From the NCBI GenBank assembly GCA_030549905.1, contig JAUQQK010000001.1, forward strand, positions 1-64,000: DNA of 64,000 nucleotides, in the 5' to 3' direction. The position numbers were made by a program, and so were the translations under genes. Positions 55,663 through 62,446 of this stretch are shown here, piece after piece (the stretch's first letter is position 1; every line of letters begins with the position of its first letter). Source of the DNA: Aquificota bacterium. GTDB lineage: Bacteria > Aquificota > Aquificia > Aquificales > Aquificaceae. The notes beneath the pieces were generated by a model that saw only the letters and a program-made list of their open reading frames with translations, did no database searches and was not told the DNA's origin.

Positions 55663-56346
55663 ATGCTTACGCAGAAAGTTATAGAGGACTTTGAGAGGGA
55701 CTTAAGGAGCATAACAGGAAAGCCTGTAAAGGCACACCTTTTTGGCTCATATGCGAGGGGTGATTTTAACATGCATTCGGACCTTGACCTTCTTCTGCTG
55801 ATAGATGACCAATGGAGCAAAGAAGATGAAGAAAGGTTAAGGCTTTTAGCATGGGAATATACAAAAAAATACGGAGTGCCTTTTTCCGTCAAGGTTTTCA
55901 AGAAGGAGGAAGCCAGAAAAAGCCCTTTAGCAAGGAAGGTGTTGGAGGGTAGGGTCATGGAAGGTAAGTATTCAGAGGAAGAGAGGATAAGCTTTTCAAA
56001 GGATTTTTTGAAGCTGGCTGAGAGGTTTTTAGAGCAGTCCTCAAAAGCACTTGCGGTGGAAGCTTACAACCTCGTAGTTCATGGCGCTTACTATGCGGTC
56101 TTTCACGCCAGCAAGTCTTACCTTATAATGCATGGGAAAGACCCGCAGACTCACAAGGGTGTGCGTGCTATGGTACATCATATGCTTACTGAGGAGCTTT
56201 CACGCACCTTTGACCTGCTTATGGACTTAAGGGAAGGAGCGGACTATGACACTTTTAAACAGCCATCAAAGGAAGAAGCTCAGGAAGCCTTAAGACTTGC
56301 AAACCTTTATGTGGATAAGATTAAAAGGCTTCTGGAGGAGCCATGA
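55663..56346 (+). CDS. MNT-HEPN fusion protein
   Basis: 227 residues. The N-terminal half is a minimal nucleotidyltransferase with AHLFGSYARGDFNMHSDLDL (GSx10DxD); the C-terminal half (about 110-227) is a HEPN domain with EAYNLVVHGAYYAVFHASKS and a later THKGVRAMVHHML. In two-gene systems the MNT is an antitoxin that AMPylates the HEPN RNase; here they are one chain. The residue where HEPN proteins have the Arg of R-x6-H (before AYYA) is Gly, so RNase activity may be lost. It lies within the glycosylation operon and overlaps the next gene by 4 bases. No separate partner adjoins. Confidence 0.78.
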   Translation: MLTQKVIEDFERDLRSITGKPVKAHLFGSYARGDFNMHSDLDLLLLIDDQWSKEDEERLRLLAWEYTKKYGVPFSVKVFKKEEARKSPLARKVLEGRVMEGKYSEEERISFSKDFLKLAERFLEQSSKALAVEAYNLVVHGAYYAVFHASKSYLIMHGKDPQTHKGVRAMVHHMLTEELSRTFDLLMDLREGADYDTFKQPSKEEAQEALRLANLYVDKIKRLLEEP

Positions 56347-57428
56347 ATATAAAATTCACCTCAAAGAAACACCCAGAGCCCCTGCTATGCCCCGAATATC
56401 CTTGGGAAGAAAGGCACACATATCTGTACGGCTCTGTCATAGAGCTAAAAGGCAGGCTTAGGATGTATTATCAGAGCTATGTGGACGGCATTGGCTTTTT
56501 TGTATGCCTTGCAGAGTCTAAAGATGGCATAAACTGGGAAAAGCCCTTAATAAAACCCCTCAAGGAATCCACTCCACACCTTTATCCAACGGTGGAGGTA
56601 GAGGGCAGAGTGCTTGACTTTTACCACAAGACCCAGAGGCTTGAATGCATGAGCAACGTGGTGGCAAACTACCACATTCCTTCCGTCATCTACAGACCAG
56701 AGGAGGAATACCCTTATAAGCTCTTTGGCTATACAGAAAAGGGTTATTGCGTAGCCTTTTCAAAAGATGGTATAAACTTTGTGGAGTATGAAAAGAACCC
56801 TGTTATACCACTTTTGAAGTTTCCAAACAGAAAGACAAAGAAGGTATGGTTCAGCGATGTGGCACCTGTTTTTTACGACAGGAAAAAGAAGGTATATAGA
56901 GCCATGGTAAAAACCTACAAAATAGACAAGGAGGGAAGAACAAGAAGGTGTGTAGGTATGTCTATCAGCAAGGACTTTATAAACTGGAGCAAGCCAAGAA
57001 CCATATGGGTGCCATCAGACAGGGAAGACCGCATAGCTCGGTCAAAGGGTTTTAAATGGGCGGACTTTTACGGACTTTGTCCTTTTAACTACAAGGACTA
57101 CTACCTTGGCTTTTTATGGCTCTTTATGATAGACTATGAGTTTGCAAGAGGCACTCACGAGGGAAAGATAGAAGTATATTTAGCCTACAGCAAGGACTGT
57201 AAAAGATGGGAGCTCGTCTCAGAAGAGTCTGTGATACCTTTGGGAAAGGAAAGCGAGTGGGACTGTGGCATGATAACCACTGCAAACCAGCCACTAATTG
57301 ACAGAGAAGGAAACATAAAGATATACTATTCTGGTGCAAACTTTAGCCATGGCTATGGAGAGTATGAAAAACCATATGAGGAAGGGCATCAGTTTTGTGT
57401 AGGAATAGCTGATGTGAAATTGGAATAG
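56343..57428 (+). CDS. GH43/GH32-like five-bladed beta-propeller protein
   Basis: 361 residues with repeated propeller-blade signatures: LRMYYQSYVDGIGFFVCLAE, AESKDGINWEKP, AFSKDGINFVEYEKNP, VFYDRKKKVYRAMVKTY, SISKDFINWSKPR, AYSKDCKRWELVSEE and IKIYYSGANFSHG. These are the SxDG.xW blades of the GH32/43/68 superfamily. No signal peptide, so it acts inside the cell, possibly trimming or binding a sugar of the glycan pathway. Catalytic carboxylates cannot be assigned by eye. Confidence 0.72.
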   Translation: MNIKFTSKKHPEPLLCPEYPWEERHTYLYGSVIELKGRLRMYYQSYVDGIGFFVCLAESKDGINWEKPLIKPLKESTPHLYPTVEVEGRVLDFYHKTQRLECMSNVVANYHIPSVIYRPEEEYPYKLFGYTEKGYCVAFSKDGINFVEYEKNPVIPLLKFPNRKTKKVWFSDVAPVFYDRKKKVYRAMVKTYKIDKEGRTRRCVGMSISKDFINWSKPRTIWVPSDREDRIARSKGFKWADFYGLCPFNYKDYYLGFLWLFMIDYEFARGTHEGKIEVYLAYSKDCKRWELVSEESVIPLGKESEWDCGMITTANQPLIDREGNIKIYYSGANFSHGYGEYEKPYEEGHQFCVGIADVKLE

Positions 57429-57763: not shown

Positions 57764-58317
57764 TGGAGGAAACCATAAAGAAGCTAAGGGGAAATATACA
57801 GTTTGACCAAATTCTCCTGAAAAACTTTATAAACCTGACCGCTGAGGAGAAGGAATGTGTAAGAAGGTGGAGAAACCATCTAGAGGTTAGAAAATGGATG
57901 TATAACGACCACGAAATTCGCCCAGAAGAGCATGAAGCCTTTATAAAAAGTTTGAAGGATAGCAGAAAAGACTTTTACTATTTGGTTTTTCATGAGGAAA
58001 AACCTATAGGTGTTTTGACATTTACTCGTCTTGACCTCAGAAACAGAAATGCTTACTTCGGGCTTTATGCAAACCCTGAAGAGAAGGTACCCGGTGCTGG
58101 TTTAATCCTTGAAAAAACTGCCATAAGGCTCGCTTTTGAAATATTGAAACTTCACACCCTTAAGCTGGAAGTGATTGAGGATAATCTAAGGGCTATAAAC
58201 TTATATAGGAGTGCGGGTTTTAAGGAAGAAGGAAGGCTAAAAGAATTCGTCTTCAAAGATGGAACATGGAAAGACGTTATAGTGATGGGTATGATAAACC
58301 CTTACGAAAAGCCATAA
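57760..58317 (+). CDS. pseH: PseH-like GNAT N-acetyltransferase
   Basis: 185 residues. GNAT fold with RRWRNHLEVRKWMYNDHEI, YYLVFHEEKPIGVLTFT, GAGLILEKTAIRLAFEILKL and the acetyl-CoA region LEVIEDNLRAINLYRSAGFK. This pattern matches acetyltransferases that add the 4-N-acetyl group in pseudaminic acid synthesis. Two adjacent ATGs (57760, 57763) could start it. The tail overlaps convergent pseG by 41 bases. Confidence 0.88.
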   Translation: MMEETIKKLRGNIQFDQILLKNFINLTAEEKECVRRWRNHLEVRKWMYNDHEIRPEEHEAFIKSLKDSRKDFYYLVFHEEKPIGVLTFTRLDLRNRNAYFGLYANPEEKVPGAGLILEKTAIRLAFEILKLHTLKLEVIEDNLRAINLYRSAGFKEEGRLKEFVFKDGTWKDVIVMGMINPYEKP

Positions 58318-59293
58318 GGACAAACTTAACTACCCTCAAAGCACCCTTACCATCTACTAAGCTTTTTCCTATCTTGCTTGCCCTCAGCCTTTCCTGATAG
58401 TTTATAAATTCCTGAAAATACCTTCCGAGCCTTTCAAAAAGCTCCTTGTCCTTCCACCAGCCCGCATACTTGGCAAAGCCTACCCTTTGCCATCCTTCAC
58501 AGTTTAAAAGCTGGTTTTCCGCCACCGCCACAAGTATAGCAGGCGTGCCAGTCCTTGCAAGCTCGTAAGTAGTCTGACCTCCCGCACTTATGGCAAGGTC
58601 CGCCTCAAGCATAAGAGCCTTCATTTGCTCAGCACTTAGCCTTTCATGAAGCCTCACTTTGCTGTCTGACAGCCTGTATATATCCTCTCTGTTTTTAAAG
58701 CCTCCTCCTATCACCACATGAAGCTCAATCTCCGGAAAGTGCCTTCTTAGAAACCTTATAACCTCTGGTGTCATGTTTTTTGAGTCATCTCCTCCAAAGG
58801 TTATCAGAACCTTCTTTAAGCTCTTCCTTACCCTCCTGCCCTCTAACCTCCAGAAAGCCTGCCTTAAGGGTATGTACTTTGTGCCAAGAAGGTAAAAAAT
58901 TCCTTCCCTTTGCGGGTATGAAAGCTCTTCCGCATATATGCTTCCGTTCAGCACGATGCCCTTTGGATAATCAAGCCTTTTGTAGTCGTCTATGTATAAG
59001 GCTGTGGTGGGGCATTCGGATATATCTTCATAAATGCTTTTAGAAGCAAGGTAAGAATCCACCACCACCGCATTAAACTCGCCAAGCCTTTCCTTAAAGC
59101 CCTTCCAGCCCTCCTGCCAGTCAAAAAGCTCATAGCTAAAACCATTCAGCACGCTTCTGGTACTTTCGTCCCCCTTTACTACCATGTGTGCCTCTGCACC
59201 AAGCATCTTAAAAGCCTGGTAGATGGAAAGGCATCTTGTGATGTGTCCAAACCCTATGGAGGAAGAGCCTTCTGTAAGGAAAAGCACCTTCAC
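58277..59293 (-). CDS. pseG: UDP-2,4-diacetamido-2,4,6-trideoxy-altropyranose hydrolase
   Basis: 338 residues from a GTG start. GT-B-like fold with FLTEGSSSIGFGHITRCLSI (His near residue 17 is the catalytic one in PseG), VVVDSYLASKS, LITFGGDDSKN and DLAISAGGQTTYELARTGTP. It removes UDP before PseI acts. It alone of the Pse genes is on the minus strand. Its start lies 10 bases from the first copy of the direct repeat. Confidence 0.88.
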   Translation of the reverse strand: MKVLFLTEGSSSIGFGHITRCLSIYQAFKMLGAEAHMVVKGDESTRSVLNGFSYELFDWQEGWKGFKERLGEFNAVVVDSYLASKSIYEDISECPTTALYIDDYKRLDYPKGIVLNGSIYAEELSYPQREGIFYLLGTKYIPLRQAFWRLEGRRVRKSLKKVLITFGGDDSKNMTPEVIRFLRRHFPEIELHVVIGGGFKNREDIYRLSDSKVRLHERLSAEQMKALMLEADLAISAGGQTTYELARTGTPAILVAVAENQLLNCEGWQRVGFAKYAGWWKDKELFERLGRYFQEFINYQERLRASKIGKSLVDGKGALRVVKFVLMAFRKGLSYPSL

Positions 59294-59302
59294 TGATTAT
59301 AT

Positions 59303-59331
59303 TTTAACTGATGCATCGCTGGCTTTTGAGG
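59303..59331 (+). repeat. 29-base direct repeat, left copy
   Basis: Identical over 29 bases to 61799-61827; starts TTTAACTGATGCATCGCTGG and ends GCTTTTGAGG. After a two-base difference the similarity runs on (CTTTAAGG here, TTAAGG there). Here it fills the gap between pseG and the stop of the last DUF29 gene and encodes the first seven codons of the HEPN gene found at the right copy. Confidence 0.9.
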
Positions 59332-59333
59332 CT

Positions 59334-59930
59334 TTAAGGTTCTCCTGGCTTTTGCCCCTTTTTGTATTTCCGTATGTATTGAGCAAATGCATGGTTTTCG
59401 TCCTCAGTTAGCTCTGTAATTCTATCTGCGATTTCTTCCATGGTGTATGGCAGTTCTTCCGGAATGCTTCTTAAAAGCTCTCTCTTAGTCTTGCTGTCAA
59501 TAATGCCATCCATTTCTAAGAATTTGATAAAGTCCATTATTTCTCCTCTTACTATTTCCCATGCGTCCCTTGTTATATCTTCAAGATGTTGCAACAGGCT
59601 TGGATTGTCCCGCACTATCACATTAACCTTTCTGCTGGCATTTATAATGCTTTTTTCCCATCCACGACCCCCCTGCCTTATGTCTGTATCATATTTAGAA
59701 TACCTTCGCAGACTGTCCAGTTTATACATATGCTCCAGTATAACTTCTATATAACTCCTAAGGCTCTTCCTCTCACTTATACCCATATCCTCTATCTCCT
59801 CAAGAAGATGTTCCCAATCCACCTGGTCGTATTTTCCTTCCCTCAAAAGCCTTAGATTTTCATAAACCCACAGGTAAAAATCCTTTTCATATAACTCCTT
59901 CAAGTCCTCAGAAGTAGTAAGGCTCTTCAT
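59334..59930 (-). CDS. DUF29 family protein, copy A (distal)
   Basis: 198 residues. DUF29 signature YEKDFYLWVYENLRLLREGK, then VDWEHLLEEIEDMGISERKS and LEHMYKLDSLRRYSKYDTD. Function of the family is unknown; members are helical, cytoplasmic and often multicopy in cyanobacteria and thermophiles. Last gene of the four; its stop codon lies 3 bases from the left direct repeat. Its middle matches copy D best (LRRYSKYDTD, QGGRGW), while its C-terminal third matches copy B (TRDAW, GIIDSKTKRELLR). Confidence 0.85.
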   Translation of the reverse strand: MKSLTTSEDLKELYEKDFYLWVYENLRLLREGKYDQVDWEHLLEEIEDMGISERKSLRSYIEVILEHMYKLDSLRRYSKYDTDIRQGGRGWEKSIINASRKVNVIVRDNPSLLQHLEDITRDAWEIVRGEIMDFIKFLEMDGIIDSKTKRELLRSIPEELPYTMEEIADRITELTEDENHAFAQYIRKYKKGQKPGEP

Positions 59931-60526
59931 GGTTTCCCCGGTTTTTGCCCTTTTTTATGCTTTCTTATGTATTGAGCAAAGGCATTGTTTTCGTCCTCAG
60001 TCAGCTCTGTAATTCTGCCTGCGATTTCTTCCATAGTGTATGGCAGTTCTTCCGGAATATTTCTTAAAAGCTCTCTCTTAGTCTTGCTGTCAATAATGCC
60101 ATCCTCTTCTAAAGATTTGATAAAGTTCGCTATCTCTTTTCTTGCTATTTTCCATGCGTCCCTTGTTATATCTTCAAGCTGTTGCAGCAGACTTGGATTG
60201 TCCTGTACTATCACATCAACCTCTATGCTTGCACTCCGGATACTTTTTCTCCATCCACGACCACCTTCCTTAAACATATCTGTATCATAACGGGAATAGG
60301 GCAACAAATTATCAAGCTTATACATATGCTCCAGTATGACCTCTATATAACTTCTGAGGCTCTTTCTTTCACTGATACCCATATCCTCTATCTCCTCAAG
60401 CAGGTTATCCCAATCTACAAGGTCGTATTTGCCCTCCTTTAGAAGTCTTAGATTTTCATAAACCCACATGTAGAAGTCCTTCTCATACAGCTCCTTTAAA
60501 TCCTTAGAAGTAGTAAGGCTCTTCAT
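59927..60526 (-). CDS. DUF29 family protein, copy B
   Basis: 199 residues with the same plan: YEKDFYMWVYENLRLLKEGK, LLEEIEDMGISERKSLRSYI, and GRITELTEDENNAFAQYIRK near the end. Its middle shares LDNLLPYS-YDTDMF-EGG with copy C, but its C-terminal half (DGIIDSKTKRELLR) follows copies A and D, so it looks like a mosaic. ATGA overlaps with the copies on either side mean that one message makes all four. Confidence 0.85.
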   Translation of the reverse strand: MKSLTTSKDLKELYEKDFYMWVYENLRLLKEGKYDLVDWDNLLEEIEDMGISERKSLRSYIEVILEHMYKLDNLLPYSRYDTDMFKEGGRGWRKSIRSASIEVDVIVQDNPSLLQQLEDITRDAWKIARKEIANFIKSLEEDGIIDSKTKRELLRNIPEELPYTMEEIAGRITELTEDENNAFAQYIRKHKKGQKPGKP

Positions 60527-61119
60527 GGTTCCCCCGGTTTTTGCCCTTTTTTGTATCTTTGTATGTATTGAGCGAAAGCGTTATCTTCCTTGGCAACCTC
60601 CGCAACTTTATCTGCAATTTCCTCTAAGGTGTATGGCAGTTTTTCTGGAATGTTTCTCAATAGCTCATCTCTCTTGCTGGCATTAATCACCTTACCATAT
60701 TCTAAGGACTTAATAAATGCCACTATATCATTCCTTGCGTATTTCCAGGCTTGCTGAGAAAAATCTTCAAGGTATCGTAATAAACTCGGACTATCATCCA
60801 ATATCTTTTCAATCTCAGTGCTGGCATTAGCTATGCTCCTTCTCCAGCTATGCCCTCCTTCTTCAAACATATCTGTATCATAATGGGAATAGGGCAACAA
60901 ATTATCAAGCTTATACATATGCTCAAGTATAACGGCTATATAGCTTATTAGACTTCTTTTGAGTATCCTGCCCATATCCTCTATCTCCTCAAGCAGGTTA
61001 TCCCAATCTACAAGTTCGTATTTTCCTTCTTTCAGGAGCCTTAGATTTTCATAAACCCACCGGTAGAAGTCCTTTTCGTATAGCTCCTTTAAATCCTCAA
61101 AAGTAGTGAGACTCTTCAT
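60523..61119 (-). CDS. DUF29 family protein, copy C (most divergent)
   Basis: 198 residues. YEKDFYRWVYENLRLLKEGK and LLEEIEDMGRILKRSLISYI are kept, but the second half differs most from the others: ILDDSPSLLRYLEDFSQQAW, YGKVINASKRDELLRNIPEK and EVAKEDNAFAQYIQRYKKGQ. Function unknown. Four-base overlaps on both sides. Confidence 0.85.
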   Translation of the reverse strand: MKSLTTFEDLKELYEKDFYRWVYENLRLLKEGKYELVDWDNLLEEIEDMGRILKRSLISYIAVILEHMYKLDNLLPYSHYDTDMFEEGGHSWRRSIANASTEIEKILDDSPSLLRYLEDFSQQAWKYARNDIVAFIKSLEYGKVINASKRDELLRNIPEKLPYTLEEIADKVAEVAKEDNAFAQYIQRYKKGQKPGEP

Positions 61120-61712
61120 GGCTTTCCCGGCTTCTGCCCTTCTTTGTATTTTCGTATGTATTGAGCAAAGGCATTGTTATCGTCCTCAGTCAGTTCCGTA
61201 ATTCTACCTGCGATTTCCTCCACGGTGTATGGTAGCTCTTCTGGAATGCTTCTTAAAAGCTCTCTCTTAGTCCTGCTGTCAATAATGCCATCTATCTCTA
61301 AGAATTTGATAAAGTTTGCTATTTCCCCTCTTGTGGTTTTCCATGCCTCATTTGTTATATCTTCAAGCTGTCTGAGCAGGCTTGGATTTTTCTGCACTAT
61401 CCTGTTGAGTTTTCCGCTGGCGTTCAAAATGCTTTTTATCCATCCACGACCCCCCTGACCTGTATCTGTGTCATACTTAGAATACCTTCGCAGATAGTCC
61501 AGCTTATACATATGCTCCAGTATAACCGCTGTATAACTTTCAAGGCCGTCCCTGTGCCTGATACCCATATCCTCTATCTCCTCCAGCAGGTTCTCCCAAT
61601 CTACAAGGTCATATTTTCCTTCTTTCAGGAGCTTGAGGTTTTCATAGACCCACAGGTAGAAGTCCTTTTCATATAGCTCCTTCAAATCCTCAACGGCGAT
61701 AAAGCTTCTCAT
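61116..61712 (-). CDS. DUF29 family protein, copy D (promoter-proximal)
   Basis: 198 residues. YEKDFYLWVYENLKLLKEGK, LLEEIEDMGIRHRDGLESYT, LDYLRRYSKYDTDTGQGGRG and SRTKRELLRSIPEELPYTVE. First gene of the array. No Shine-Dalgarno sequence precedes its ATG; an AT-rich stretch (TATATTTAATAC) lies directly upstream, so its promoter should lie in 61713-61798. The other three start by coupling at ATGA overlaps. Confidence 0.83.
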   Translation of the reverse strand: MRSFIAVEDLKELYEKDFYLWVYENLKLLKEGKYDLVDWENLLEEIEDMGIRHRDGLESYTAVILEHMYKLDYLRRYSKYDTDTGQGGRGWIKSILNASGKLNRIVQKNPSLLRQLEDITNEAWKTTRGEIANFIKFLEIDGIIDSRTKRELLRSIPEELPYTVEEIAGRITELTEDDNNAFAQYIRKYKEGQKPGKP

Positions 61713-61798
61713 GAGTATTAAATATATGCAGGCTGACTGTAAATTCCTAACAAAAAATTTTCCACCCCACCCGCCAGTTCAAGCCCTTCTTGTTATAC

Positions 61799-61827
61799 TT
61801 TAACTGATGCATCGCTGGCTTTTGAGG
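61799..61827 (+). repeat. 29-base direct repeat, right copy
   Basis: Second copy of the repeat at 59303-59331; 2467 bases lie between the two. Here it covers the 5' end of the HEPN gene (ATG at 61807) and part of its extended -10 (TGTTATACT at 61791-61799). Confidence 0.9.
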
Positions 61828-62229
61828 TTAAGGAGCTATGAGAAGGCTTTAAAGAGTTTAAGAGAAGCTGTGGAAATATACAGAAGCAGAGAAATGAACC
61901 CTGTAGAGGAGCAGGGTTTGATAAAAGCCTTTGAATACACCTACGAGCTTGCCTGGAACCTGCTTAAAGACTACCTTGAGTAACAGGGCATCAAAGATAT
62001 GAGAGGTTCAAGGGATGCTATAAAGAATGCCTACAAATACGGTCTTTTAGAGGATGTGGAGCTATGGTTTAAGATGTTAGAGGCAAGAAACTTGACAGCA
62101 CACACTTACGATGAGTCTCTGGCAAAGGAAATGCTTGTCAGGATAGCAAGAGAGTTTCATCCTGAGCTTGAAAGACTTTTTCAGGTCTTTAAGAAGATTG
62201 AAAGCCATGAGCTGGGAGAAGGCACTTGA
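61807..62229 (+). pseudogene. HEPN domain protein (HI0074 type), interrupted by in-frame stop
   Basis: The frame from the ATG at 61807 reads MHRWLLRLRSYEKALKSLRE, then GLIKAFEYTYELAWNLLKDY LE, meets TAA at 61981-61983, and goes on in the same frame as QGIKDMRGSRDAIKNAYKYG, VELWFKMLEARNLTAHTYDE to 62229. Without the stop it is a complete 140-residue nucleotidyltransferase-substrate-binding HEPN protein. The RNase motif R-x4-H (RNLTAH) is in the second part, which could restart at the ATG at 61999. One base change would mend it. It overlaps the MNT remnant by 23 bases, as in intact pairs. Confidence 0.8.
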
Positions 62230-62446
62230 GAAGGTGTTAGGACTTCTGAAAGAAGAGCCTAAGGTGGAAAGAGTTCTGCTCTTTGGCTCAAGGGCAAGGG
62301 GGGACTTCAAAAAGGGTTCTGACATAGACCTTCTTAAGTTTGAAAGCCTCTCAGACCCCTTTTTCAAAGAAACTATCTTGAGAGAAGGTAAAGAACTATA
62401 TTTTAAAAACCGTGAAGGTAGCAGAAGGTTTCAGGCTAAAGACTAA
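62207..62446 (+). pseudogene. MNT nucleotidyltransferase, probably internally deleted
   Basis: 79 residues from the ATG at 62207: WEKALEKVLGLLKEEPKVER, then LLFGSRARGDFKKGSDIDLL (GSx10DxD) and at once [20 protein letters not shown]. Intact relatives of this antitoxin-type nucleotidyltransferase have about 35 more residues between the DxD and the last segment, ending in a VDL that holds the third catalytic Asp. Here DIDLL seems joined to what should follow VDL, so a deletion between short repeats is likely. It overlaps the start of uvrB by 35 bases. Confidence 0.65.

Follow-up and report, generated by a model that had tools for sequence, protein, structure and literature searches.

The window, as we call the whole stretch of 64,000 nucleotides that was analyzed, carries four DUF29 genes in tandem on the minus strand, transcribed in the order D, C, B, and A. 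The open reading frames and the PF01724 profile agree on four genes of 198-199 residues joined by 4-base overlaps, as stated in the preliminary description of this DNA. At each of the three overlaps, the stop codon of one gene and the start codon of the next share the bases ATGA, in junctions reading ...ACCATGAAG or ...GCCATGAAG. All four products were matched by PF01724 with scores of 101-109 bits, the cut-off being 22.5, and the matches span profile positions 1 to 132-135 of 138. Pairwise protein identity between the copies is only 62-83%, and a duplication made by the assembler is therefore unlikely. Promoter-like matches in the 80-bp leader upstream of the array were no commoner than in shuffled sequence. 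The coordinates of these features and of those flanking them are collected in Table 1.

The genome, that of a heat-loving bacterium, is 1.65 Mb in 28 contigs and, judged from the named relatives of the same sequences, presumably belongs to the Aquificaceae. It held 17 DUF29 matches, the most among the 136 Aquificota genomes searched. In the tree, the four window copies formed one clade (100/100) with a long stem and without an orthologue in the genus. Their nearest relative, from another Aquificaceae genome, was 51% identical and carries the motif YDTNMF, which is of the type seen in copies B and C.

Table 1. Positions of the DUF29 array and adjoining features in the window
Feature	Position	Strand	Remarks
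pseG	58277..59293	-	co-directional with and downstream of the array; TIGR03590, 157.4 bits (cut-off 153.55)
35-bp direct repeat, left copy	59297..59331	+	1 mismatch; abuts the array; also in the pseG upstream region
DUF29 gene A (last of array)	59334..59930	-	198 aa; stops with TAA, not ATGA, where gene and flanking repeat meet
Middle segment of A	about 59457-59663	-	equivalent of the B segment; alignment and silent-identity profile
DUF29 gene B	59927..60526	-	199 aa; PF01724, 104.3 bits; AF2 model, pLDDT 90.5
Middle segment of B, residues ~91-159	60050..60256	-	variable between DUF29 paralogues; alignment and silent-identity profile
DUF29 gene C	60523..61119	-	198 aa; PF01724, 108.8 bits; middle segment most divergent (pS/pN by segment)
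Middle segment of C	about 60643-60849	-	equivalent of the B segment; alignment and silent-identity profile
DUF29 gene D (first of array)	61116..61712	-	198 aa; open reading frame; PF01724, 101.3 bits
Middle segment of D	about 61239-61445	-	equivalent of the B segment; alignment and silent-identity profile
80-bp leader, upstream of array	61713..61792	-	from the sequence
35-bp direct repeat, right copy	61793..61827	+	includes the start of the HEPN remnant
HEPN pseudogene (NTase substrate-binding, PF08780/HI0074 type)	61807..62229	+	in-frame TAA at 61981-61983
MNT-type nucleotidyltransferase remnant	62208..62445	+	internal deletion after SDIDLL; runs into the uvrB start

The insertion site and neighboring genes

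In the relatives G007 and G013, pseG directly adjoins a gene that we take from its sequence to be uvrB. In the window, the DUF29 array and a HEPN-MNT gene pair occupy the space between these two genes. The 35-bp repeat is found in only two copies in the whole genome, and these exactly bracket the array and its 80-bp leader; the inserted block therefore carried DUF29 genes only, and comprises the leader and four open reading frames without a transposase. With a 2-bp gap, the repeat continues for a few bases into the start of the HEPN coding sequence, and the stop codon of the last DUF29 gene arises at the junction with the left repeat copy. The block might have been acquired, for example, by capture during break repair or by single-crossover integration of a circle.

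Mobility with target-site duplication was considered as a general trait of DUF29 genes and rejected, since the 35-bp repeat flanks the window array only. Of the remaining DUF29 loci that were tested, L097 alone had a flanking repeat of comparable length, and this one resembles a duplicated hsdS coding sequence. At this locus (L097 3147-3833; G010:C8), the DUF29 gene is flanked on either side by a 43-nt stretch resembling hsdS C-terminal coding sequence, the two stretches being about 80% alike. One DUF29 neighbor in the scanned set, probably that at L097, matched type I specificity models.

The preliminary description had regarded a defense or stress role as conceivable from the adjoining HEPN-MNT pair. 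An intact HEPN homologue reads DYLLYQG at the position of the in-frame TAA in the window gene, and an intact HEPN-MNT pair is present in G011. Owing to the nonsense codon and the deletion in the MNT gene, the pair beside the array is no evidence for a functioning toxin-antitoxin system. Elsewhere in the window, at 55663-56346, an MNT-type nucleotidyltransferase and a HEPN domain are fused in one intact protein.

We compared 60 DUF29 stretches fetched from 19 genomes. Their neighbors were unrelated housekeeping genes in 29 different contexts, including rimM, ispG, nadA, sbcC, aroA, hisG, purB, and trpB, several of these being names that we presume from the sequences. Pfam and PADLOC scans of the DUF29 neighbors gave no shared family and no defense enrichment, with isolated hits among 82 neighbors. 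With the adjoining pair decayed and the wider surroundings housekeeping in character, the suggested defense role by association found no support. The preliminary description had also named, as a finding that would speak against it, arrays beside housekeeping genes and without variation; the neighbors are of that kind, yet whether DUF29 is present, and in how many copies, differs greatly.

Recombination within and between DUF29 arrays

Gene conversion among the four copies had been proposed from shared motifs, and we confirmed each of these in the sequences. Copies A and D share LRRYSKYDTD and QGGRGW, B and C share LDNLLPYS and YDTDMF, and A, B, and D share GIIDS-TKRELLR, in place of which copy C reads KVINASKRDELLR. 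Sliding identity along the four genes was uneven and differed by pair, with the middle segment being of one type in A, B, and D and of another in C. The longest shared tracts were improbable for A/B (P = 0.0008) and B/C (below 1/5000) in permutation tests that took all 241 polymorphic sites and assumed one rate along the gene.

The same pair-specific variation by segment was seen in synonymous divergence. For A/B, pS was 0.57-0.77 over codons 1-92, 0.20-0.31 over codons 93-175, and 0.73 over codons 176-199. For B/C it was 0.28 over codons 71-92 versus 0.45-0.70 elsewhere, and for A/D it was 0.23 over codons 71-92 versus 0.72 over codons 1-50. Since the mosaic also appears at synonymous sites, it is not explained by uneven constraint on the protein. 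When silent codons alone were subjected to a best single-segment test, A/B was significant (P = 0.007), B/D was borderline (P = 0.043), and the remaining window pairs were not significant. The silent-site support for a mosaic within the window array alone is thus moderate.

The larger set of arrays extended this result. In 17 of 18 tandem Aquificota arrays, silent codons were more similar in the head of the gene than in the body (sign test P = 1.4e-4, with pairs and arrays being partly dependent data); the window array was the sole exception, with no extra head identity. Within arrays, pS was 0.35-0.49 over the first ~45 codons versus mostly 0.55-0.75 further on. Pairs of genes from different genomes lacked this dip in the 5' bins, which argues against codon constraint. 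Pairs from the same genome but at different loci had a smaller head excess (mean +0.09), indicating that homogenization is not confined to arrays and that some exchange occurs genome-wide. For fifteen arrayed genes, the best-matching head lay within the same array and the best-matching body at a different locus or in a different genome; for two, it was the other way round. The tail (the last ~18 codons) was often homogenized too, leaving the middle, corresponding to copy B residues ~91-159, as the divergent part. A cyanobacterial array likewise had near-identical heads and divergent bodies, and near-identical tails were found in a pair of Arthrospira genes and in a pair from a viral contig. 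Gene conversion is therefore supported beyond the window, as a general feature of DUF29 arrays.

Between species, the bodies behaved differently. In most species pairs having a common body (middle >80% identical in amino acids), conservation of the body equaled or exceeded that of the head, and in close species pairs the body had a dN of 0.01-0.02 and a dS of 0.06-0.13. The individual middles are thus under purifying selection, with the flanks being exchanged among paralogues. Positive or diversifying selection on the middle was not shown, pooled dN/dS being 0.33 and not above 1.

Arrays also change in length. Another array of the same genome contains a perfect 565-bp repeat with a 509-bp offset (L073 6785-7349; G000:C3, about 56784-57348), although repeats as long as this are assembly-sensitive. 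The offset equals one gene length minus the overlap, and the order is head1-X, head2-X, head2-Y. This repeat is the product of one recent unequal crossover in a 56-bp stretch common to head 1 and head 2. At a syntenic site marked by sbcC and an M16 peptidase gene, the number of DUF29 copies was 0 (G006), 1 (G000, G007), 2 (G010, G011), or 4 (G013), and copy number varied likewise at other shared sites. One of the G013 copies at the sbcC site grouped in the tree with copies from the moaC/porin site (100/100), which indicates movement between loci. Broken DUF29 copies were found at L077 9120-9954 (G000:C14), L084 5061-5563 (G006), and L119 5636-6702 (G030); with such copies in several genomes, loss is also common. 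An exact 4-nt overlap was present at 21 of the 32 tandem DUF29 junctions counted, some of the remainder being broken genes or having doubtful start calls, and the two DUF29 genes of an array on an E. coli plasmid likewise overlap by 4 nt. Taken as a whole, a recombination account of DUF29 arrays is very probably correct.

The DUF29 protein and its predicted fold

The window copies score far above the Pfam cut-off for DUF29 and share with the family, including 3FCN (Rru_A3208 of Rhodospirillum rubrum), the residue set D..W..D..EE..H..K..W..PSL. Residues D17, W21, D38, E44, E45, M49, H67, K70, W92, P111, S112, and L113 are all present in all four copies, and the polar residues among these (D17, D38, E44, E45, H67, and K70) are conserved from cyanobacteria to proteobacteria. 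The window copies differ from most members in having 198 aa rather than 140-175, with additional sequence near residues 74-90 and an extended tail. They also differ at position 100 (copy B numbering and equivalents), where all four have Ser in place of an Arg found in 92% of 65 aligned sequences; conservation of this Arg was derived in the present alignment and is no published defining feature, and profile-based membership in DUF29 stands. Given Ser100, the window copies may be functionally altered.

A window protein (copy B) was predicted to be all-helical, as was a canonical DUF29 member (pLDDT 95.0). The single confident PDB match of the canonical model was 3FCN (probability 1.00, TM 0.59), which sequence profiles likewise retrieved. 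The fold search with the longer window model had no meaningful PDB or viral match, and 3FCN was absent among the 50 hits listed. A relationship of DUF29 to HEPN was rejected, as neither profile nor fold gave a HEPN hit, and the fold searches matched no other functional fold. In the predicted model, the variable middle consists of helices 90-109 and 111-141 and the stretch that follows. No paper using the name DUF29 was found in the open library searched.

Possible roles of DUF29 arrays

The above considerations led us to a reading, to which we assign a probability of about 0.5, in which the recombining array would be a co-expressed stock of variants, differing in specificity, of one solitary accessory protein. 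Arrays gain and lose copies through homologous unequal crossover and conversion at the conserved gene ends, and a crossover at the equivalent position of two heads keeps the exact 4-base ATGA overlap. The conserved helical scaffold, made up of the N-terminal half and the tail and bearing the family-wide polar residues, would carry an exchangeable middle composed mainly of two helices. That the middle sets specificity while the scaffold does one common job is a more tentative proposal; if so, the middle would decide the partner bound, and an array would hold several specificities expressed together. The diversifying set of binders named in the preliminary description fits the pattern of constant ends and variable middles, with binding specificity itself remaining our inference.

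The selecting pressure could conceivably come from mobile elements or phages, a possibility suggested by the very small plasmids and the viral contigs that carry DUF29. DUF29 was found in 84 plasmid records, 35 of them from Piscirickettsia. It is carried by seven plasmids of 4.9-8.8 kb from Rahnella, Acidiphilium, and Candidatus Nitrosoglobus, on which 5-11 genes are annotated (L193-L197, L241, L242). On some of these DUF29 lies beside the replication gene rep, and no partner is constant among them. About 40 IMG/VR viral contigs carry DUF29 (L244-L287), with podovirus-type head-tail genes adjoining on some; a tblastn search of named phage genomes yielded no DUF29. Among the neighbors on viral contigs, one matched the Acb2/Tad1 hairpin domain and three matched head-tail connectors. 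A bolder version, in which DUF29 arrays would be a diversity-generating locus for a partner-free recognition protein used in plasmid and phage conflict and carried by those elements, we think rather unlikely.

Tandem homologous genes might, alternatively, simply recombine in a neutral or selfish turnover, with redundant copies whose middles differ without any consequence for specificity. The patchy distribution of DUF29, which occurs in 35 of the 136 Aquificota genomes and in 7 of the 30 genera, is in keeping with this, as are the broken copies and the housekeeping neighbors without a theme. However, the low dN relative to dS in orthologous middles makes purely neutral turnover less likely, and each window copy retains the conserved polar residues, Arg100 excepted, when redundant copies should decay evenly. 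We therefore judge this explanation improbable.

DUF29 might instead be a solitary defense, addiction, or abortive-infection protein, such as an enzyme using the D/E/H/K residues, that is kept against phages or plasmids, with the copies differing in dose or timing and not in recognition. Its place among the few genes of tiny plasmids, beside rep on some, and on viral contigs would suit such a protein, as would the toxin-antitoxin genes that accompany it on pACRY06 and a Citrobacter plasmid. Against this, PADLOC models gave nothing above noise for DUF29 itself (E = 0.004-0.007, for one copy only), the chromosomal copies are without defense enrichment nearby, no HEPN-like fold was matched, and the adjoining HEPN-MNT pair is dead, so that this explanation too seems unlikely. 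Coupled translation of overlapping, co-directional genes, with four diverged copies all staying open, might be thought to build one complex of four different subunits, the hetero-oligomer suggested in the preliminary description, but a fixed four-part complex is very doubtful because copy number is so labile, ranging from 0 to 4 at one syntenic site in related species, and moreover many DUF29 genes stand alone and so require no fixed subunit set, while D, B, and A have one middle type with C alone differing.

A recombining stock of specificity variants thus remains the reading we prefer. DUF29 is widespread, occurring in cyanobacteria, Aquificota, proteobacteria, small plasmids, and some viral contigs, and the pattern of constant ends and variable middles narrows the question to the job of the scaffold and to what the middle recognizes. 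The arrays also show clearly how crossover, and not selection for coupling, can give rise to exact 4-base overlaps.

Beyond the DUF29 family itself, two known systems invite comparison. A MNT/HEPN toxin-antitoxin pair (PF08780/TIGR01987 with MntA-like NF047752) directly adjoins the window array, but here it is a pseudogene pair, and DUF29 resembles HEPN neither in sequence nor in fold. Recombining families with constant ends and a variable core include the HsdS target-recognition domains and the pilin and vls cassettes. DUF29 is not homologous to these and differs in lacking a single expressed locus with silent cassettes, all copies being open and overlapping. By analogy with such families, however, the constant flanks of DUF29 genes would provide the homology for crossover, the variable core would be exchanged, and several versions would be maintained side by side.
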